DNA of 32,538 bases, from contig QHNT01000057.1 of assembly GCA_003218515.1 (NCBI GenBank), positions 1-32,538 of the forward strand, in the 5' to 3' direction. The translations under genes and the position numbers were made by a program. Within the stretch, counting starts at the first letter, position 1. Each line of letters opens with the position of its first letter. Shown here piece by piece: positions 260-31,479 of this stretch. The DNA is from Verrucomicrobiota bacterium. GTDB lineage: Bacteria > Verrucomicrobiota > Verrucomicrobiia > Limisphaerales > AV2. The notes below the pieces were generated by a model that saw only the letters and a list, made by a program, of their open reading frames with translations, ran no database searches and had not been told where the DNA came from.

Positions 260-318
260 GTTTGGAAGTTGTGTCGGGACGCACCGGACGCCGATCTGAG
301 ATTCTTTAGTTAGAGTGA

Positions 319-417
319 TTGCCAAAAGAAATTTCCGAAATGGTGGGCGACGACCTGGGGGGTCGTCGCGGCAAACCGGCAGGTTTGCCCCACCATTTCG
401 GAAATTTCTTTTGGCAA
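319..417. repeat. Long palindrome forming a three-way junction
   Basis: Two perfectly complementary 29-base arms (319-347 and 389-417) enclose two further perfect hairpins. The first has an 8-bp stem (CGACGACC 348-355 with GGTCGTCG 361-368, loop TGGGG). The second has a 7-bp stem (GCAAACC 371-377 with GGTTTGC 382-388). Folded as DNA or RNA this is a Y-shaped three-way junction. It sits between the terminator of the partial gene and the 3' end of the leftward octahaem gene, so it could mark the 3' end of that transcript. No T tract follows on the minus strand, so simple intrinsic termination is not obvious. Confidence 0.85.
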
Positions 418-428
418 CCTGTATAGGT

Positions 429-2594
429 CTATTCTCTCAGTCGCACCGGTCTCGGATCCCGCTGGCGGACCAAGCGTTGAAACCCCTCCTGCATCGCGGT
501 GGTGTCATTCAAGCGAACCAGCGTTTGCGCCGGCAGGACCTCGTCACGCGCGGATGACATTTCTCTGCTCCACCGTTCCAAAACCGAGGCTTGAACCGAT
601 GGACGTGAATCAGGGGACACAGTGTAGTCGTAGCCACCCGGCAGGAGAGTCGGCGCTATCTGCTTCACAGACCGTTCCGCCACGCACCGAACAGCCGCGT
701 AAGGATCGTCCAAAAGCTGGGCCAGGACCGGTGGAACCCATGACCTTCCCGAAACCTGCAACGCCGGCTCCCAACTCAGGTGCCATGCCACGAGAACGCG
801 CTGCCCGGCGTCGCCGGCGAGCGCCAGCCGGACCGCATCCGCCACCGCGGTTTGGTCTTCGGACAGGTCGGGAATCGAATGGCCGTACCATCGCCCGAGT
901 TGATTGGCCGTCCAGGCGAGCGGCTTGTCCAAATGGCAGAGGTTGCAGGCATTCGGCCGACCGGTCGCAAGTTGGACTGCGACCCTGGGACTGCTCACCT
1001 GATGGCTGCGGATGGCCTTGAGCACGCCGTAAGTCGTGAACGGCATGTGGCAGTTGTAGCACAGGCTTCCCGACGAGCCGGCCTGGTGCCGCGTGTGGGC
1101 GGTCAATTGCGCCTCCTCGCGAAAGCTCCCATGACATTGAGTGCAGGCCCGGTTGTCTGTCCGGTTGCGCGCCAACTGATCGTCGGGATCGCTTGAATGC
1201 AGCGAGTGGCAAGAGAGACAGGAAAATTTCCCGCCTTTGTAACAAGGGGATTCCAGCAGCCCGTTGTATTCGCGGCCACTGACGCGGATCATCCCGTCCG
1301 ACCAGAAGAAGTCGTCGAGGAGGTCCGGACTGCGGGCAAGGTAATCCGCGAGTCCAGGTATCGTCTCGACTCGGGAAGGTCGGATGATCGGCGTGGTCCC
1401 CTCCAGATCATCGCCAGGTCGGTAGCGAAACCCCGTTTGACGCCACCTTTCCGACTTGTCGATCCATTTCATGGAATGGCAAAAACCGCAGATTTGGGCT
1501 GCCCGGACTGGCTCGATCTTTTTCGGATGAACGATCTCGCTCCGGAGGACTCGCGCGTCGGGTGTCGTGGCTTGGTTCCACTCGGCCTTGCGGGCGAGGA
1601 CGTGGTGTTGTCCCGGCCCGTGGCACGCCTCACAGGCGATGCCCAACTCGCCGGCCCGCGTTTCCATCGTGCGTCTTTCGGTGTCCACGCGCGGTTCAAT
1701 CCCCGTCGCGTGACACCGGCTGCAGACAACATTCCAGACTTCCGATCGGTGCGGGACGTCCGGCGGGCGCACAAACGTTGAGTTGCGCGGCACCCAGCGC
1801 TTTTCGGGGATCAACCAGGTGAATGGAAAACCAATCTGCATGTTGCCTGCGTCCCCCGGCACCCAAAAGACCTGCATGTGATGTGAACCGGTCACCAAAC
1901 CGACGCGAACATCGAGCGCTTCCTGGGTGTCCTCCTTTGGCTGTTGCGCATTCATTGGATCGATGACCCGGCCCCTCACCCGGCCTTCAGCCACCCTCTC
2001 CCCCTCCGAGGGGGAGAGGGACGGGGTGAGGGGCGGTTCATGGGCAGCTGGCTGTTCCTTGGGCCCCTGCTCCCGGACCTTGAAGCGCTCCTCACCTGCT
2101 CCTTTTCCTGCCCTCTCCCCGCCTTGCGGGTAGAGGGTAGCCGAAGGCCGAGAGAGCGGTAGCGCCTCTCCCTGCGCCGTAGAGGCCAGGCGCTCCACGC
2201 GCACCCAGAATTCGTTGTTCGTCCGGCTCAAGACAAATCGAACGCCTTCGTTCGTGAGCGTCACCTTGTGGAACTCAGCGCGGATCGTATCGGCAGCCGC
2301 AATTTGCGTCATCGTCCGGTGATAGCTCCGGTGCCAGCTCTCGAATTGATCCTCGTGACAGGAACGGCAGGTCTCTGAGCCGACATAACCGGCCGGTCCG
2401 CCGACGTGGGGCAGAGTGGCGGCGAAAGCTGCGCTCGTGACAGACTCCCGCGCCGCGGCGGAGGTTGAGTCATCCACTTTGGCCGGAGCGGATTCCTTTC
2501 GAGAACAGCCCAGAGCCAGCAACAACCAGCCGGTTGCCGCCAGCACACCAGGCGTGGCTGGCACTCGTCTTCGCACAAATCCGGTCAAAGGCAT
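429..2594 (-). CDS. Octahaem c-type cytochrome lipoprotein
   Basis: This 721-residue protein begins with a lipoprotein signal (lipobox LALGC, Cys30), so it should be exported and anchored by lipid. It carries eight CXXCH haem-binding motifs, starting at residues 76, 291, 321, 369, 459, 484, 512 and 550. This resembles multihaem proteins of the cytochrome c554/doubled-CXXCH type, which carry electrons in the periplasm or at the outer surface. The last 160 residues contain no haem motif and look HEAT-like. It starts 12 bases after the stop of the upstream PHM-like gene and is the last gene of a three-gene operon. Residues of about 147-210 (codons at 1967-2156) are encoded by two palindromic repeat units that keep the frame open, so this low-complexity stretch between haems 1 and 2 is probably not ancestral. 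The electron donor and acceptor are unknown; a reductase function is possible but not shown. Confidence 0.88.
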   Translation of the reverse strand: MPLTGFVRRRVPATPGVLAATGWLLLALGCSRKESAPAKVDDSTSAAARESVTSAAFAATLPHVGGPAGYVGSETCRSCHEDQFESWHRSYHRTMTQIAAADTIRAEFHKVTLTNEGVRFVLSRTNNEFWVRVERLASTAQGEALPLSRPSATLYPQGGERAGKGAGEERFKVREQGPKEQPAAHEPPLTPSLSPSEGERVAEGRVRGRVIDPMNAQQPKEDTQEALDVRVGLVTGSHHMQVFWVPGDAGNMQIGFPFTWLIPEKRWVPRNSTFVRPPDVPHRSEVWNVVCSRCHATGIEPRVDTERRTMETRAGELGIACEACHGPGQHHVLARKAEWNQATTPDARVLRSEIVHPKKIEPVRAAQICGFCHSMKWIDKSERWRQTGFRYRPGDDLEGTTPIIRPSRVETIPGLADYLARSPDLLDDFFWSDGMIRVSGREYNGLLESPCYKGGKFSCLSCHSLHSSDPDDQLARNRTDNRACTQCHGSFREEAQLTAHTRHQAGSSGSLCYNCHMPFTTYGVLKAIRSHQVSSPRVAVQLATGRPNACNLCHLDKPLAWTANQLGRWYGHSIPDLSEDQTAVADAVRLALAGDAGQRVLVAWHLSWEPALQVSGRSWVPPVLAQLLDDPYAAVRCVAERSVKQIAPTLLPGGYDYTVSPDSRPSVQASVLERWSREMSSARDEVLPAQTLVRLNDTTAMQEGFQRLVRQRDPRPVRLRE
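1967..2156. repeat. Inverted pair of palindromic repeats inside the octahaem gene
   Basis: Unit 1 (1972-2033) has a 10-bp outer stem (CCCCTCACCC with GGGTGAGGGG) and a perfect 13-bp inner stem (1994-2006 with 2008-2020). Unit 2 (2111-2137) has a 12-bp stem with one mismatch around a CTT loop. The two units are inverted copies of each other: bases 1981-2003 match the reverse complement of 2128-2150 at about 19 of 22 positions. The arrangement resembles a paired REP element (BIME). The whole segment lies in the coding region without stop codon or frame change. A degenerate relative of unit 1 is at 31304-31359. Confidence 0.8.
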
Positions 2595-2606: not shown

Positions 2607-4328
2607 TTAGGGCTTGGACTCGGCTTTCGCTTTGACAATTCGAGCCAGCATCTCGCGCACGCCGGGGTCCTTCGGGTTCTTGTTCAGCGCGGCCTTCAAG
2701 TGCACCTCAGCCTGATCGAGATTCTGTTCTTCGATGCTGACCGAACCGAGTCCAACGTCGGCTTTATAAAAACCCGGATTGACGCGCAACTCGCGTTCGA
2801 ATTCCGCACGCGCTTCCGGGAATTGTTGTTCGTCGAAAAGGATCAGGCCGAGATAGTAGTGGGCCTCGGACTGACCGGGATTGAGTTCCAAAGCGGTCCG
2901 AAAATGGAGCGCGGCGGCGGCCGTTTGCCCGAGCGGGCCCAACACCTTCCCCAGCGCCACGTGAGAAGGGGCATCGTCCGGGTGCGCCCGGAGGAAATTC
3001 TCGTAAAACCCGGCGGTCTCGCGTGAATCCATGAGCCTCTTTTCGCGTTGCAGAATCGCCAGATCGTTCGCGTGGTCTGGCAAAAGCTGGAACCACAGTT
3101 CTCCCATTTCGTCTGTGCTTTGCGGTCCGAAGATGACACGCCGCGGCGGGTGGTTCGGATTGCGAATGTTGGCGGCCGAATTGTCGTAGCTGATCGAGCA
3201 CTCCAACCGGGCGCCCCGCGGCAGGTGGACCGGCTGTTGGTAGCGATACTCCTCCTGCCAGTTGAAGTCCCAGCGCGGAATCCACAGCAACGAGCGGGAC
3301 GCGCCGTCAGGAAACGTTGCGTTGAACCGTACTTCGCGCGCCAGATAATGGGCGTGGGGCATGACCGCCAACAGTTCCACGTTCGATGGCAATTCAAAGC
3401 TCCGTGTCACGGTATAATTCGTCGCGCCGGCGGGAATGTCGATGAGCTGGGCAGTCAAACCCATCAGAAACGGGGTTTTACTCGGACGGACATCCGTGAA
3501 GTAAAAACCGACCTCGGGTTGGATTGATTCTCGTTTGCCTGTGCGCTGCATGTGCATCTGGAGCACCAGATCGCTGCCTGCCTCAAGTACCCAGGTCAAT
3601 TCGGGCGGATTCCGCCGCGGCTGCCGGCCTGGCACCCAGCCCAGGAGATGACCGGGCGGGTGCCTGGCTGGAACGTTCATCCCGCTGAAGCCGGGCTCCG
3701 GGTCCCGTTCATCCAGTTGGCGGCATTGCCCGGTGCGGTCAAACAGAATGCGAACGTGGTGGACGCTCTGGCTGCCAGGTCGAAACTCGAACGCCTGCAC
3801 GAAACGGTTTGAGGCAAGCGGCAAGGGCACGACAAAGTTGCGATAAAGGTCCGGGCCGTCCGGGCCGAGTTCATACGGCTCAGACATCCGCACGACGAGG
3901 TCCGGCTGGCCCAGTTGCCAACCCGCAGGGAAAGTCGGGCACGGCGGCAAATCGACGGTGTTGCCTTCCAAAGCGCCGCCGGCGAGCCAGCCTTGAAAAA
4001 GTTGGACTTCCCCATCGCTCATCCGCCGCGAGTCCATCAACTCCCCATGCCCGGGCGCGGGCAGCCAGGGCGGCATGATACGCTGGGCCGTGACCTCCGC
4101 CAATTCTTTACCGCGTTTGCGGGCATCGGCGTAACGCAGGAGGGAAAATGGGCCGACCCCGCCCGGACGATGACACGGGGCACAGTGACTGAAGACGACT
4201 GGCGCCAGATCGCGACTAAAGGTGATTTCACCGGCGCCGGCGGATTTCGCGGTGCCGGTCTCTGCAGCGATTGCCGTCGCAGTCCCAACGGCCGCAACCA
4301 TGGAAGCCACAAGATTAGATAACCGCAT
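2607..4328 (-). CDS. Cytochrome c / PHM-like copper monooxygenase / TPR protein
   Basis: I place the start at 4328 because translation from there gives a clean signal peptide (MRLSNLVASMVAAV); a longer frame from 4379 would overlap the upstream gene and put 17 unlikely residues in front. The 573-residue product has a single haem site (CAPCH, residues 49-53) in a cytochrome c domain. Next comes a region like copper type II ascorbate-dependent monooxygenases (PHM), with candidate copper ligands His190-His191, His259 in QMHMQ, and His325/His327 in MPHAHY. Three or so TPR repeats occupy about residues 450-573. It is probably an exported oxidase or monooxygenase with its own electron-carrying haem. 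Its substrate cannot be read from the sequence. It lies between the CRTAC1 gene and the octahaem gene in one operon. Confidence 0.82.
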   Translation of the reverse strand: MRLSNLVASMVAAVGTATAIAAETGTAKSAGAGEITFSRDLAPVVFSHCAPCHRPGGVGPFSLLRYADARKRGKELAEVTAQRIMPPWLPAPGHGELMDSRRMSDGEVQLFQGWLAGGALEGNTVDLPPCPTFPAGWQLGQPDLVVRMSEPYELGPDGPDLYRNFVVPLPLASNRFVQAFEFRPGSQSVHHVRILFDRTGQCRQLDERDPEPGFSGMNVPARHPPGHLLGWVPGRQPRRNPPELTWVLEAGSDLVLQMHMQRTGKRESIQPEVGFYFTDVRPSKTPFLMGLTAQLIDIPAGATNYTVTRSFELPSNVELLAVMPHAHYLAREVRFNATFPDGASRSLLWIPRWDFNWQEEYRYQQPVHLPRGARLECSISYDNSAANIRNPNHPPRRVIFGPQSTDEMGELWFQLLPDHANDLAILQREKRLMDSRETAGFYENFLRAHPDDAPSHVALGKVLGPLGQTAAAALHFRTALELNPGQSEAHYYLGLILFDEQQFPEARAEFERELRVNPGFYKADVGLGSVSIEEQNLDQAEVHLKAALNKNPKDPGVREMLARIVKAKAESKP

Positions 4329-4362
4329 GGCACTCGGACAATAGCTCCACTTGTCCTGTGTG

Positions 4363-6711
4363 TCACCGCTGAATCCCATTCTCCGCCGGAGCGAGAATGT
4401 TGTGATAGCGATTCACTGCCGCTTCGCGAAGGGTCAACGTCTGACCATTCGGCCATCGTATCTCGACGCTGTCCACCCGCTTCGCTTTGCCCAAGCCAAA
4501 ATGCACTGTGTCGCCGTGTTGCGATCGGTAGGAATCTCCGGTCACGATTTGCTGCGCCGTGGTTCTGCCGGAATAACGCAAAATAACCCGCGCGCCGACA
4601 GGCGATAGGCCGTTGCCCTGCTCACGAAATCGGAAGCCGATCCAGTTGCCGGGTTCTTCCAATGTATTCTTGAATATACGCAAGGTTTGTTTCAGTTCCG
4701 GCCATTCTTCGAACGTGGTAAGGAGCAGGTCCACGCGGCCATCGCCATCAAGATCGTCGGCCACGACGTCGCGCGAGTCTGCTTCGAGCGCCACTCCCAT
4801 GAGATGACCCACCTCGAGAAACGACGCACCCTGTCGGTTGAGATAGAGGCGGTTCTTTTCGTACCCGCCAAACGAGTATCCGCGTCCGCGGGTTCGCGAC
4901 ATTTTTGCGCTGAAGTACGCAGCCAGGACCAAATCCTCTTTTGAAGAACCGACGTACGCGTCGTGCAACCAGACCTCGGTTTCGTAGTCGCGGACGGATT
5001 GTTTTGTCTCGTGGCCGTTGGCAATGTAAACGTCGGGAAAACCATCGTTGTCGAAATCGAACGCACTGCAGCCCCAGGACCAACCGGAGCGCGCGATGGA
5101 ATCGTTGAGCGTCGTTTGCTCGAACCCCCCATCGGGCCGCGCGAGGTAGAGCCGGTTCCCGAATGCCACGCGCGAACGCATCGTGTGGTCTTCGAGAATC
5201 CCCGGCCGCCACAAATCGAGATGTTCCAAACGGTCCGCGACGGGCGAATTCATTCCAATCATCAGAATGTCAAGTCGTCCGTCCGCGTTGAAGTCCGTCA
5301 ACGCGTGTGCCATGCCGAACGCATGAGGCTCGGCGACCCACTCGCGAGTGACGTCGCTGAAATGACCGCGACCGTCGTTCCGGTAAAGATCAACGCCCGC
5401 AAAATCGCTGACGACCAGTAAATCCAGGTTCCCGTCGTCGTTCAGATCGACGAACGAGGCGCTGTAAGTGCGCCGCCTGCGTTTCTTCTCCAACCCCGCA
5501 GCCGGGGTCGCGTCCGTGAAATTGCCATGCCCGTCGTTCAGCAACAGGTACGCAGGATTGCCATCGTTGGCGTCATAATACGGCGTCGGCATCTGGCCGC
5601 GCATGTAGGGGACCTTGTATTGGCCGATGAACACATCGAGGTCGCCGTCGCCGTCGATGTCGCCGCACGTCAGCGCTTGTGCATATTTCAAATGGGGGTT
5701 GACTGACCAGACCCGGCGGCCCGGCTCGTCAAAGGTCCCTTTGGACGAGCCTTTGAACAGGACCAGCCCATCGAACGTCGCGCAAAGGAAATCGGCGACG
5801 CCGTCTCCGTCGAAGTCCGCAACGGCGCCGGTGAAAATCAATCCGGGCGGGTATTTGCACAGCGACTGTGGTTCGTAGCGATCTTCACCACGCCGGTGAT
5901 AAACCAGGTTCTTTGCCGCGAGGATGATTTCCGAGAGACCATCGCCGTCCAGGTCGTAAAGGATCAGCGGGTCGATGAAGTAGGACTTGTCGGGGGGCGT
6001 GATTTGCGCGGCCAGAATCTGCCGGAAGGCCGGTTCGCCGCGCCGCGTCTTGACGGTCAGGTGACTGGCGTCAATTCGTTTGATGGCAGTCGGCTCTTCA
6101 TCCGACTGCTTCGGCGCCCAATCCACAACGAGGTCCCCCTCCAGAACTGCGCGTTCCGCGCGCGCCTCGTTGGTCAGCTGCGCTGAAAAATAAAAATGGC
6201 TTTGCCGGGCCCTCCCGGCTTCGTCCGTGTCGAATCGGTTGTGCCGAAATTCGATGTGCGCGAGTTCCCAGCCGGCGCGTTGTGATTGCTCAAGGAACCG
6301 GTCCCACTGCGGCTCAGACCATTGGGGGCCGACGCCGGTCGGCTCGCGCAGTTCGATGCCGTTCGCGAGCTTTTGCGGTGGACTGAAATTGCCGGGGACA
6401 AGTTCGCCGAGCTGAAAAGACTGGAGGACGCTGAATTTGTTGGTCGCGGCGTTAAGCGAATCCCAGAGCGACTCGAAGACGCGTGCGCATTCCTCGGCGA
6501 GAATCTCCTTCGCCCAAACAGTTTTATTCAACTCGTTTTCTTTTGCTTCGAGCGCCGTGAATTGATTGACGAGTTGCTGACTGACCGGGCCGGCAATATT
6601 GGTGGAACTGTCGGCGGACGGAGCCGCGCGCCTGCGCGCGATCACGAGCGTCGCGCAGAAGAGCAGGAGAATGAACACGCCGGCGAGGAATTTGTGAAAG
6701 GAGCGGCTCAT
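4363..6711 (-). CDS. CRTAC1-family FG-GAP/VCBS beta-propeller protein with ASPIC/UnbV domain
   Basis: The 782-residue product has an N-terminal hydrophobic signal or anchor (about residues 8-25), then an unassigned 200-residue region, then at least seven calcium-binding FG-GAP/VCBS loops of the D-x-D-x-D-G type (for example DLDGDGLSE, DIDGDGDLD, DFDNDGFPD, DLDGDGRVD). It ends with an ASPIC/UnbV domain (GARVILRYSG, then a QHGDTVHFGLG motif). Such proteins are exported beta-propellers often met in Verrucomicrobia, Planctomycetes and Acidobacteria, usually of unknown role and thought to bind partners or surfaces. It is the first gene of the leftward operon, 34 bases before the PHM-like gene, which suggests a shared extracytoplasmic function with the two haem proteins. 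Confidence 0.88.
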   Translation of the reverse strand: MSRSFHKFLAGVFILLLFCATLVIARRRAAPSADSSTNIAGPVSQQLVNQFTALEAKENELNKTVWAKEILAEECARVFESLWDSLNAATNKFSVLQSFQLGELVPGNFSPPQKLANGIELREPTGVGPQWSEPQWDRFLEQSQRAGWELAHIEFRHNRFDTDEAGRARQSHFYFSAQLTNEARAERAVLEGDLVVDWAPKQSDEEPTAIKRIDASHLTVKTRRGEPAFRQILAAQITPPDKSYFIDPLILYDLDGDGLSEIILAAKNLVYHRRGEDRYEPQSLCKYPPGLIFTGAVADFDGDGVADFLCATFDGLVLFKGSSKGTFDEPGRRVWSVNPHLKYAQALTCGDIDGDGDLDVFIGQYKVPYMRGQMPTPYYDANDGNPAYLLLNDGHGNFTDATPAAGLEKKRRRRTYSASFVDLNDDGNLDLLVVSDFAGVDLYRNDGRGHFSDVTREWVAEPHAFGMAHALTDFNADGRLDILMIGMNSPVADRLEHLDLWRPGILEDHTMRSRVAFGNRLYLARPDGGFEQTTLNDSIARSGWSWGCSAFDFDNDGFPDVYIANGHETKQSVRDYETEVWLHDAYVGSSKEDLVLAAYFSAKMSRTRGRGYSFGGYEKNRLYLNRQGASFLEVGHLMGVALEADSRDVVADDLDGDGRVDLLLTTFEEWPELKQTLRIFKNTLEEPGNWIGFRFREQGNGLSPVGARVILRYSGRTTAQQIVTGDSYRSQHGDTVHFGLGKAKRVDSVEIRWPNGQTLTLREAAVNRYHNILAPAENGIQR

Positions 6712-24171: not shown

Positions 24172-24242
24172 TAGCCGCAAAAGAACGCAAAGATCGCAAA
24201 GATGTCCGTGTCCCTTGTGTTCTTTGCGTTCTTTTGCGGCTA
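24172..24242. repeat. Palindrome between convergent genes
   Basis: Two perfect 22-base complementary arms (24172-24193, beginning TAGCCGCAAAAGAACG, and 24221-24242) are extended inward by about six more pairs to a short loop. The element lies between the 3' end of the coiled-coil gene (24087) and the 3' end of the LOG gene (24262). It could therefore act as a two-way transcription barrier, although no strong T tract follows. Confidence 0.85.
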
Positions 24243-25349: not shown

Positions 25350-25422
25350 GGTGGGGCGAGACTCTGTCGAGCCCTAACTTCTATCCATTGGAGTTCAGGG
25401 CTCGACAGAGTCCCGCCCCACC
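25350..25422. repeat. Long palindrome with GGTGGGGCG ends
   Basis: Two 26-base arms (25350-25375 and 25397-25422) are complementary except at one position and enclose a 21-base centre, in which AACT and AGTT can pair further. It is the first of three palindromic elements that fill the 513-base gap between the LOG gene and ileS. No coding region is supported in that gap. Confidence 0.85.
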
Positions 25423-25594: not shown

Positions 25595-25721
25595 GGTAGG
25601 GACGCCGCGCTGCGGCGTCACCGGCCGCGTCCAGCGGACGGAATCTCGTTATCCATTGCTTTGCTTCCATTCCGTTGCGCCGCTGAACGCGGCGCGGTCA
25701 TCGCAGCGCGATGACCCTACC
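25595..25721. repeat. Multi-hairpin cloverleaf repeat upstream of ileS
   Basis: A 6-bp closing stem (GGTAGG 25595-25600 with CCTACC 25716-25721) encloses five hairpins. They are GACGCCGC/GCGGCGTC (25601-25619), CCGC/GCGG (25625-25637), CGGAAT/ATTCCG (25639-25674), GCGCCGC/GCGGCGC (25677-25695) and GTCATCGC/GCGATGAC (25697-25715). It lies about 85 bases before the ileS start, so it may be transcribed as leader. I see no T-box features (no specifier loop or T-box sequence). Confidence 0.75.
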
Positions 25722-25806: not shown

Positions 25807-28559
25807 ATGGCAATGGACTACAAAGACACCTTGAACCTGCCGCGGACGGACTTCCCGATGAAGGCCGACCTTGTCACCCGCGAACCACAGCAGATCGAGA
25901 AGTGGCAGAAGGAAAAACTCTACGAGAAAATCCAGGTCGCACGCGACGGTGCCGAAAAATTTGTCCTGCACGATGGCCCGCCCTTCGCCAATGGCGACGT
26001 CCACATCGGCAACGCGCTTAACAAGATTCTCAAAGACATCGTCGTCAAATACAAGTCCCTGCGCGGTTACAGCGCGCCGTATGTGCCGGGCTGGGATTGC
26101 CACGGCCTGCCCATCGAATTCAAGGTTTCCCAGGAAATGCGCAAACCGGGCGGGGCAGGAGTCTCGCCTGTGGATGTGGACGCCGCCACAGTTCGCAAGG
26201 CCTGCGACGCCTACGCCCGCAAATACATCGACATTCAACGCGAGCAGTTCAAGCGCCTCGGCGTGTTTGGCGATTGGGAGAATCCCTACCTCACGCTGAA
26301 CAAGGAATACGAGGCGGACGAACTTCGATTGTTCGCCGACATCGTCGAGAAAGGATTTGTCTATCGCGGGAAGAAACCGGTTTACTGGAGCATTCCGTGC
26401 CGCACCGCGCTCGCAGAGGCCGAGGTGGAATACAAAGACCACGTCAGCCAGAGCATCTACGTGAGATTTCCGGTCATCGGCCAGCCCGGCACCTCGATCC
26501 TCATCTGGACGACAACACCCTGGACGCTTCCGGCCAACCTGGCAGTTGCTTACAACTCAACTTTCAGCTATGCGCAAGCCCGCGTCGGCGGAGAAACGTT
26601 CCTCGTTTCCACCTTGCTCCTGCCGACGGTCGCGGAGAAATGCCGCTGGGACAGCTACGAAATCGTCCGCAGCCTGAACGCCGATAACCTCCGGCAAATC
26701 GAGTTTCAACACCCGTTCTGCGCGCGCACCGGAAAATTGTTTGCCGGCGACAGCTTCGTGGAAAACACCACCGGCACCGGATTCGTGCATGTCGCGCCAG
26801 GGCACGGTTTGGAGGACTACCAACTCGGCCTGCAAAACGGCCTTCCGATTTATTCGCCGGTGGACGACGACGGCCGCTTCGCCTACTCGAACGAATTGCC
26901 GCTCGAACAGCAGATGCCGAAGGAACTGATCGGCAAGGCGATTCTGGAAAAGCACGGCAGGAGCGAAGCCAACGAAGCGGTGCTGCAACTCCTGCGTGAA
27001 CGCAAGGCGCTGGTGCATCGGGAGGATTACACCCACAGCTATCCGCATTGTTGGCGCAGCAAGACGCCGATCATTTTCCGCCCGCGGTCAAGACACGGCC
27101 CGACTGGTGCATTTCGCGCCAGCGCACGTGGGGCGTGCCCATCCCGTTCTTCTACGACGCGCAGAGCCATCCTTTGCCTGATCCAACCAAGGATTCAAGG
27201 GTGGCGGCGCGAATCGTCCGCAATACAGCCGACCTCGTTGAAAAGCACGGGTCGAACGTCTGGTTCGAGAAGTCGTGCGCCGAGTTGTGGGCTTCCGTGA
27301 AGCCAGTGGATTGGAACGGCACGGAACCCGTCGCCAAGTCAAACGACACCCTGGATGTCTGGATTGATTCCGGTTCGTCGTCGCGCTCGGTGCTCATGCG
27401 TCGTCCGGATCTTTTTCATCAACCATCAACCATCAACCATCAACCGGCCAATTGGCAGGCCGATATGTATCTGGAAGGAAGCGACCAGCACCGCGGCTGG
27501 TTTCAGTCCTCACTGCTGATCTCGCTCGCCGGAAACGGCGCCGCGCCTTACAAGACCGTGCTCACGCACGGTTTCATGGTGGACGCCGATCGCGAAAAGA
27601 TTTCCAAGAGCAAACAGGGCCAGGGTGTTTACGAGAAACCGCAGACGGCTGACGCTTACGTGAAGAAATGGGGCGCGGACATTGTGCGACTGTGGGTCGC
27701 TTCGCAGGACTTCCGCAACGACATCATCGTGAGCCAGGAACGGATCAACAAAGTCGCCGAGACCTATCGCGTCATCCGCAACGCCCTGCGTTACCAGCTC
27801 TCGAACCTTTACGACTTCGATCCAGCGACGCACAGCGTGCCGGACGAAAAGCTCACTGGCCTCGACCGCTGGATTCTTGGCGAGTACTCCAAACTCGAAG
27901 CCGAAGTCATCAAGGCTTACGACGCTTACGAATTTCATGTCGTTTACCAACAAGTCAGCCAGTTTGCGGCAGTGGAGCTTTCGGCGATCTACCATGACGT
28001 GATCAAGGATCGACTCTACACCGATCCGGCTAACTCGCATCGCCGCCGCTCAACGCAAACAGCGTTGCACAGGCTGGTGTCCGGACTTTGCCAGATGCTC
28101 GCGCCGATTCTTTCGTTCACGGCGGATGAAGCGTGGGAGTTGATTCCCGATAAACCGACGCAGTCCGTGCATGAAACGACGTGGCTGCGTTACTCTCTGG
28201 TTCTACCTGAAGGCGAATTGCTGGCGTGGCAGCAAATGCTGGCGATCCGCGATGGAGCTTTGGCCGAGTTGGAGAAAGCTCGCCAGAGCAAACTCATCGG
28301 CAAAGCACTTGAAGCAAGAACTGAATTGATTGGTGGCATGATTGGAGTGCTTGTCAGTCAAAAGGACTTTGAGTCACTGAGGGAACTATTGAACGTTTCA
28401 CAGATCTCAGCGCAGCCCAGCGACGAGTCCTTGAAAGTCCGCGTTGCCAAAGCGGACGGTCAGAAATGCGCACGCTGCTGGCATTGGGAAACGGACGTCG
28501 GCTCGCACAAGGAGCATCCGACAATCTGCGGCCGTTGCGTGGCGGCGGTTTCTTCGTAG
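25807..28559 (+). pseudogene. ileS: Isoleucyl-tRNA synthetase, disrupted by deletion and frameshift
   Basis: Class I isoleucyl-tRNA synthetase charges tRNA(Ile). The first part reads in one frame from ATG 25807 ([12 protein letters not shown]) with the HIGH-type motif HIGN (66-69), up to KTPIIFR near 27081. From about 27085 the rest reads in the -1 frame: [27 protein letters not shown], the signature loop KISKSKQ (codons from 27597), the anticodon-binding part, and a C-terminal zinc site (CARC...CGRC). About 40-45 residues that normally lie between IIFR and RPDWCISR are missing. The frame change fits loss of 3n+1 bases. IleRS is essential, so either the assembly is wrong here or another ileS exists. 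A 13-residue insertion made of heptamer repeats (27417-27444) is also present. The stop codon lies inside a palindrome arm. Confidence 0.9.
27417..27444 (+). repeat. Four tandem CATCAAC heptamers inside ileS
   Basis: Four exact copies of CATCAAC run head to tail and are translated as part of FHQPSTINHQPAN. In other IleRS proteins the sequence goes almost directly from the RPEL-like segment to the conserved ADLYLEGSDQHRGW motif, so this is a small family-atypical insertion in the catalytic domain. Confidence 0.85.
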
Positions 28560-28757
28560 CGCAGGCATCCTGCCTGTCAGTTGCGAGGCTTCCGAGCCTC
28601 GCTTTTCATTTCGCGGCAAGGATGCCGCGCAACCGGTAGTGTCCTAGTTTGGTGGCGGCGGTGCTGCGGCACCGCCTTGCGCCGCGGCAGCGGCGCACCC
28701 ACCTGAAGCAAATCAGGACACTGCCGCGCAACCTGCACGCTGGAAGCGTGCGCTACG
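28555..28757. repeat. Composite palindromic repeat beginning at the ileS stop codon
   Basis: Arms CGTAGCGCA (28555-28563) and TGCGCTACG (28749-28757) are fully complementary and enclose perfect hairpins CAGGCA/TGCCTG (28562-28576), GCGAGGCT/AGCCTCGC (28583-28602) and GCGGCA/TGCCGC (28613-28628). The ileS stop TAG is bases 28557-28559 of the left arm. A second element (28635-28722) is nested within it. This accounts for the 222-base gap before the DUF2182 gene, in which I see no gene. Confidence 0.75.
28635..28722. mobile_element. MITE-like element, copy 2, with 11-base flanking direct repeat
   Basis: The ends GGTAGTGTCCTAGTTTGGT (28635-28653) and GCAAATCAGGACACT (28708-28722) are nearly identical to those of copy 1. 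The core differs: GGTGG/CCACC closes hairpins GGCGGTGC/GCACCGCC (28657-28676) and GCGCCGC/GCGGCGC (28679-28696). The exact 11-mer GCCGCGCAACC stands on both sides (28624-28634 and 28723-28733), as expected for a target-site duplication. It interrupts the older composite palindrome 28555-28757. No open frame is present. Confidence 0.8.
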
Positions 28758-31077: not shown

Positions 31078-31479
31078 GTTCCGCTCCTTTCTTTCGACGG
31101 TTCAGGTGATGAAGGTTGCATCAGGTAATTTGGGATTCGCCCCGGCGAAAACGATCTCAGACTCTGACGCCGGGCCGCTTCCTGGTGTGCGGGAGACTAG
31201 CAAACCCGAGACGCACTGGCAACAGGATAAAGGCCCCGGCTGCAGAACGGGCGGACCTTGGCACTACCACCCTATCGAGTCCGCTCTGCAAGATTTCCGA
31301 AGACCCCTCACCCTGTCCCTGCTCCCCATCCGACGGTGGCCTTCAGGCCGGGTGAGGGGAATACGTGGGTCACAGGACTCGTAGCCGCCGACGTAAGGAG
31401 CGGGTCCGACCGCGGCTGCCGACACTCCGCCTACTTACGTCGGCGGCTACAACCAAGCTCCGCGCCGTGGCAGACGCGG
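31078..31479. other. Intergenic region with two palindromic repeats
   Basis: No gene is supported. Bases 31304-31359 hold a degenerate element with outer arms CCCCTCACCC and GGGTGAGGGG, the same arms as in the octahaem gene insertion. Bases 31381-31450 form a palindrome with perfect 17-base arms (31381-31397, GTAGCCGCCGACGTAAG, and 31434-31450). The part nearest the DUF1326 start (31078-31300) should hold its promoter, but I see no clear boxes. Confidence 0.7.

Follow-up and report, generated by a model that had tools for sequence, protein, structure and literature searches.

An in-frame insertion of palindromic repeat DNA in an octahaem cytochrome gene of a Verrucomicrobiota bacterium

MITEs are repeats of 70–300 bp that have inverted ends, carry no gene of their own and occur in many copies. 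Rickettsia palindromic elements (RPEs) are described, in the parts of two papers used here, as lying in frame within numerous unrelated protein genes, where they are read as extra peptide (PMC10969869, PMC3733652). As far as the sections of the second paper considered here go, furthermore, REP monomers, dimers and clusters are reported inside coding regions of Opitutus terrae, Thauera and others (Di Nocera 2013, PMC3733652); the GTAG-type intragenic REPs are most numerous in a verrucomicrobium, the clusters in Thauera and R. conorii encode 43–82 residues, and the terminal inverted repeats (TIRs) around TIRYT genes carry a GGGGWSAS motif.

In this study, we examined the first 32,538 nucleotides of contig QHNT01000057.1 (assembly GCA_003218515.1) of a Verrucomicrobiota bacterium; this whole stretch is called the window. 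The explanation that we hold to be very probable is that a non-autonomous palindromic element of ~82 bp multiplied in the genus and inserted in frame in an octahaem cytochrome gene. By analogy, the element behaves like RPEs and intragenic REPs, a kind already published, including in a verrucomicrobium. The likeness to RPEs, namely in-frame insertion in unrelated genes, is one of behaviour; the element differs from RPEs in belonging to another phylum, in its size (~82 bp in arrays versus ~150 bp for RPEs) and in lying mostly outside genes. Among the open-licence papers listed for the core sequence itself, REPs in Verrucomicrobia, intragenic palindromes, Pedosphaeraceae repeats or MITEs and Rickettsia/Wolbachia elements, which are a body of weak scope for this purpose, we found no description of this element family.

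The palindromic element and its possible mover

When copies from the source genome were aligned, the element appeared as a palindromic unit of ~82 bp with sharp ends, CCATGAACC and GGTTCATGG; these 9-bp ends are followed by CCCCTCACCC arms, a GCCCTTCGGGC mini-hairpin and the CCCTCTCCCC...GGGGAGAGGG core hairpin. The core pattern CCCTCTCCCC-N4-20-GGGGAGAGGG was found at 256 places in the 5.89-Mb source genome and the reversed-pattern control at none, so that the palindrome is a repeat and not a product of chance. A profile search of 61 stretches (810 kb), most of them chosen because they contain repeats, gave 144 places, which include both units in the cytochrome gene and a third, degenerate copy at 31299–31374 on the minus strand (E 4.2e-8), where no gene is assigned; the preliminary description had rightly noticed this last copy but placed it at 31304–31359. 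Copies occur either singly or as arrays joined by a semi-conserved spacer: of the 85 neighbouring pairs, 35 are no more than 300 bp apart, 25 of them at a spacing of 110–139 bp. Six more inverted repeats were seen in the window (296–440, 24172–24242, 25350–25422, 28555–28757, 31381–31450 and 25595–25721), each of which recurs at 5–17 places in the 810-kb sample of the source genome; several repeat families thus coexist in this genome.

The element had been labelled REP-like, which holds in that it is a palindromic repeat but not in its ends; in 103 aligned copies, the conserved ends are CCATGAACC and GGTTCATGG, neither GTAG nor CGTC. Also, REPs including the intragenic ones are stem–loops of 20–40 bp with a GTAG or CGTC tag, whereas the present unit is ~82 bp long and has nested arms. 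A search of the window at the Rfam gathering level matched no family. In its size, its terminal inverted repeats, its many copies and its lack of any coding capacity of its own, the element resembles a MITE; it departs from MITEs in that no clear target-site duplication was seen at the empty ham1 site of the related genome G002, the other sites being too diverged, and in that a search restricted to Y1_Tnp found no parent transposon. With a single close empty site that shows no target-site duplication, classical transposition is at most a candidate mechanism.

As for the mover, genes with a Y1_Tnp domain are present in all five genomes of the genus that were compared (the source, G001, G002, G003 and G004), with 11 matches in the source genome, and the core GGGGAGAG fits the GGGGWSAS motif given for the TIRs around TIRYT genes in the part of PMC3733652 considered here. 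Both observations would suit a REP of the classical type whose mover is a tyrosine transposase, RAYT or TIRYT, of the source genome itself, but a copy of the element lies within about 1.5 kb at only one of 30 Y1_Tnp loci (83 kb, five genomes), which is not the arrangement of a REPtron, where copies flank the RAYT gene. The 29 loci with no copy nearby speak against a RAYT link of the element; at the 19 loci that were inspected, the core palindrome was absent and any inverted repeats were of other kinds. Considering also that the ends carry neither GTAG nor CGTC, we regard the classical REP as a doubtful explanation. The TIRs of TIRYT genes share with the element a self-complementary GGGGWSAS-type motif and its occurrence as dimers and clusters and differ in that no neighbouring tyrosine transposase gene was found for the element family; the fit of the core keeps a trans-acting enzyme of the TIRYT kind among the possibilities. 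A non-autonomous element would most likely be moved by a transposase acting in trans, for which an enzyme of the HUH/Y1 type is a possible candidate, with chances clearly below even.

The core palindrome is patchily distributed in the order (49 of 116 genomes; control, none). The exact CATGAACC-CCCCTCACCC end form is much narrower in its distribution: it has 37 + 40 copies in the source genome, 25 + 27 in G002, 13 + 15 in G001, 4 + 6 in G003 and none in G004. Among 12 other chosen genomes of the order that hold the palindrome, two have this form (G055 once, G084 three times), and across the phylum it gave a single match in one of 287 other genomes. As G004 has no exact-end form and, as described below, an empty cytochrome site, the burst of the element seems, from these sequences, to postdate the split from G004. 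In G083, a genome of the same order, several contigs hold CCCTCTCCCCTCAACGGGGAGAGGG-type core palindromes that are paired repeatedly 155 bp apart; these pairs represent a dimer family that is distinct from the present one and belongs to another genus.

The insert in the octahaem cytochrome gene

The host gene (429–2594, minus strand) encodes a protein of 721 residues, which is an octahaem c-type cytochrome as indicated by its eight CXXCH motifs and by the multihaem cytochrome domains Cytochrome_C7, Paired_CXXCH_1 and Cytochrome_C554. Its nearest solved relative is the outer cell-wall cytochrome OcwA (6i5b), the top fold match for the host-protein model (E 3e-11) and also the top sequence match in the PDB; identity is 14% and TM 0.39–0.57, and the host protein is unlike OcwA in combining eight CXXCH motifs with the insert. 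The neighbouring genes encode a TPR protein (2607–4379) and an FG-GAP / ASPIC-UnbV protein (4363–6711).

Between haem motif 1 (CRSCH with C76, 2355–2369, minus strand) and haem motif 2, the inverted palindromic pair noted in the preliminary description is indeed present, with arms at 1972–2020 and 2111–2159 (49 nt, 76% complementary). The strand folds far more stably than shuffled sequence, both as DNA (z −4.5) and as RNA (z −4.2), with none of 200 shuffles reaching its value. Unit 1 (1949–2049, plus strand; profile match E 1e-24) contains a perfect 13-bp hairpin (1994–2006/2008–2020) nested in perfect 11-bp arms (1971–1981/2024–2034); its right end GGTTCATGG is intact and its left end is degenerate (CGATGACCC). 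Unit 2 (2076–2160, minus strand; E 3.1e-10) has the opposite orientation. The spacer between them (2045–2090) is related, though in diverged form, to the one linking units elsewhere, as an alignment with other composite places in the genome shows. A second copy of the spacer follows unit 1 in the direction of the gene (1930–1966), where it encodes (D)PMNAQQPKED; because the plus strand from ~1930 matches the unit-linking spacer of the genome, this peptide is also repeat-derived and the insert starts near 1930. The entire repeat-derived insertion thus spans about 1930 to about 2165 (approximate ends; residues about 144–222, including a stretch around PPLTPSLSPSEGER), and the span of 1967–2156 proposed before was correct as to its repeat origin but too short. 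Similarly, the addition had been put at ~64 codons, whereas the measured net gain is 78 residues: the source protein has 160 residues between C76 and G236, i.e., from haem motif 1 to the HHMQVFW block, versus a mode of 82. The frame is open throughout the insert, and one CXXCH motif precedes the insert and seven follow it, as had been described.

We collected 73 orthologous loci, mostly labelled Verrucomicrobia or Planctomycetota with one Myxococcota and a few mislabelled or uncultured; the motif search could measure the interval from haem motif 1 to the HHMQVFW block in 69 of them and could not read the other four. The stretch is missing in 67 of the 69, which have 71–92 residues there, and the only long loci (160 and 109 residues) are presumably the records of G002 and G003. 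A segment of equal length but non-repetitive, which would have spoken against an insertion, was found here in none of the 69. Within the genus, G002 (93% identical DNA) has the same two-unit insert as the source, G003 (82%) has a shortened insert, made up of unit 1 with its adjacent spacer, and the site is empty in G004 (74%); no cytochrome orthologue was found in the incomplete assembly of G001. Since the orthologues and G004 lack the stretch, the segment is, on this comparison, an insertion of repeat DNA. The source assembly is fragmented and repeat-rich (490 contigs, 86.8% complete), from which one might suppose that the assembler or the binning stitched repeat DNA into the gene, but the separately assembled and 7% divergent G002 carries this insert too, at the corresponding site, with ends that agree and without indels, making such an artefact extremely improbable.

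Translation of the insert is suggested by its open frame, by the lack of any indel relative to G002, and by the differences between source and G002, which over 79 aligned insert codons number 4, 4 and 15 at codon positions 1, 2 and 3; simulated frame-neutral change reaches the observed count of silent changes with P 0.0115, a value that rests on 23 differences. Repeat DNA has therefore probably become protein sequence in this gene, as had been proposed. In the AlphaFold model, residues 139–222 have pLDDT below 50 and lie between the strands 128–135 and 226–230, most of the remainder being above 70. The insert is accordingly modelled as what is probably a disordered loop; few aligned sequences cover it, so that a low pLDDT would be expected anyway and is weak evidence alone.

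It might further be supposed that the insert has been recruited for a function, with selection maintaining the palindromic stretch at the level of the protein or of an mRNA hairpin. In the part retained by G003, 5 of 90 aligned bases differ from the source, with 29 of 29 aligned bases identical in the second spacer copy (1930–1966), while the flanks differ by 14% and 22%; the dN/dS of the insert between source and G002 is 0.30; and the RNA fold is stable relative to shuffles (z −4.2). The adjacent non-repeat segment 1825–1916 is, however, as conserved in G003 as the insert part, so that a recombination tract between the lineages could explain both; selection on the insert and such a tract are both possible causes of its low divergence. 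A dN/dS of 0.30 is nothing special next to 0.44 before and 0.17 after the insert, and G003 has lost one unit and has its reading frame broken further downstream. We thus consider recruitment very unlikely and prefer an insert that is simply tolerated.

Two further observations concern this gene in G003. Identity to the source is unusually high over 1825–2024 (two places with 4 differences per 80 columns; median, 12). Also, the gene (L049, G003:C148) is split into frames of 508 and 173 residues, and a stretch is missing around residues 512–529 of the source protein.

Copies in other genes of the genus

For the search of further in-gene copies, 60 stretches of the source genome (each ≤20 kb) were sampled from about 74 contigs with repeat matches, and a copy was scored as in-gene when the frame was open and coding sequence lay on both sides according to a codon model trained on long ORFs. 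Eight of the 144 copies were too close to a contig end; 19 of the 136 testable ones (~0.8 Mb sampled) are in frame in 17 genes including the cytochrome gene, and, since the stretches were chosen for known repeats, this proportion is biased and neither the density nor the in-gene rate can be scaled to the genome. Of 1000 random places, 444 were scored as in-gene by this test, and hence the copies are depleted from genes. Of the 16 other insert-bearing genes, 15 have a Pfam match (the exception being L227), and in seven the match spans or brackets the element: MnmE, Ham1/ITPase, an alcohol dehydrogenase, the N-terminal part of anthranilate synthase, an MFS transporter, a radical SAM protein and DUF7133. 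A gene for a subunit of NADH-quinone oxidoreductase also belongs to the series.

As with RPEs, then, the element is found in frame in several unrelated genes (17 by the codon model) with homologues that lack the insert; empty sites in relatives were found for the cytochrome, ham1 and mnmE genes. The ham1 insert is shared by the source and G001, and the site is empty in G002 and G004, while G003 has only a fragment. In mnmE, the source and G002 share one insert, G001 has a different copy in the same loop, the site is empty in G004, and G003 has a short extension that is unrelated to the element. The ham1 gene of G002 (L244), compared with L197 (G000) and L247 (G001), is a mosaic relative to the source, with 78% identity before the insertion site and 93% after it; about 15 residues are absent from it upstream.

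For the left core arm, the phase could be read in 17 in-gene copies and was unreadable in two: 13 are in one phase, two in the other open phase and two in the third. This count is mildly biased because some stretches were chosen through a protein search in the frame of the cytochrome; without the two same-phase copies from that search (L232 and L235), the numbers are 11, 2 and 2. There is no support for a shaping of the element against stop codons, since a copy has 3.59 open frames on average versus 3.48 for random segments of the same stretches.

A broader reading would be that a lineage-specific burst of the palindrome decorates the core proteome of the genus with an LSPSEGER-type peptide and that some inserts are selected. 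The element being palindromic, one and the same tolerated peptide would result from either orientation, and individual loops would be hit repeatedly, as in mnmE (one copy in the source and G002, another in G001). If true, the element would be in effect a protein-compatible selfish DNA, with the cytochrome insert among those now selected; we consider this reading unlikely.

A probable course from repeat DNA to protein

With a non-autonomous element as the preferred explanation, the course of events may be pictured as follows. The element would have multiplied in the genus after the lineage of G004 separated, and a two-unit array would have inserted itself into the octahaem gene where a linker, whose sequence is variable in all relatives, joins two beta strands. 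Because the net length is divisible by three and no stop occurs in the frame of the gene, ribosomes would read through the insert, adding about 78 hydrophilic and probably disordered residues to what we infer to be a surface loop; the eight haem sites would stay, and the insert is likely to be harmless. Most copies falling into genes were presumably removed by selection, and those that survive within genes would be in frame, mostly in one frame, yielding an LSPSEGER-type peptide in either orientation.

The present findings document the passage of selfish palindromic DNA into protein, at the strength given above, outside Rickettsia, with the empty, shortened and full states of one site within a genus. 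The insert-bearing genes, namely those of MnmE, Ham1/ITPase, the NADH-quinone oxidoreductase subunit, anthranilate synthase and the cytochrome, would furthermore offer a natural series for the tolerance of loops in core enzymes. Caution is also advisable in the annotation of such genomes, in that LSPSEGER-type peptides in predicted proteins may be derived from repeats.
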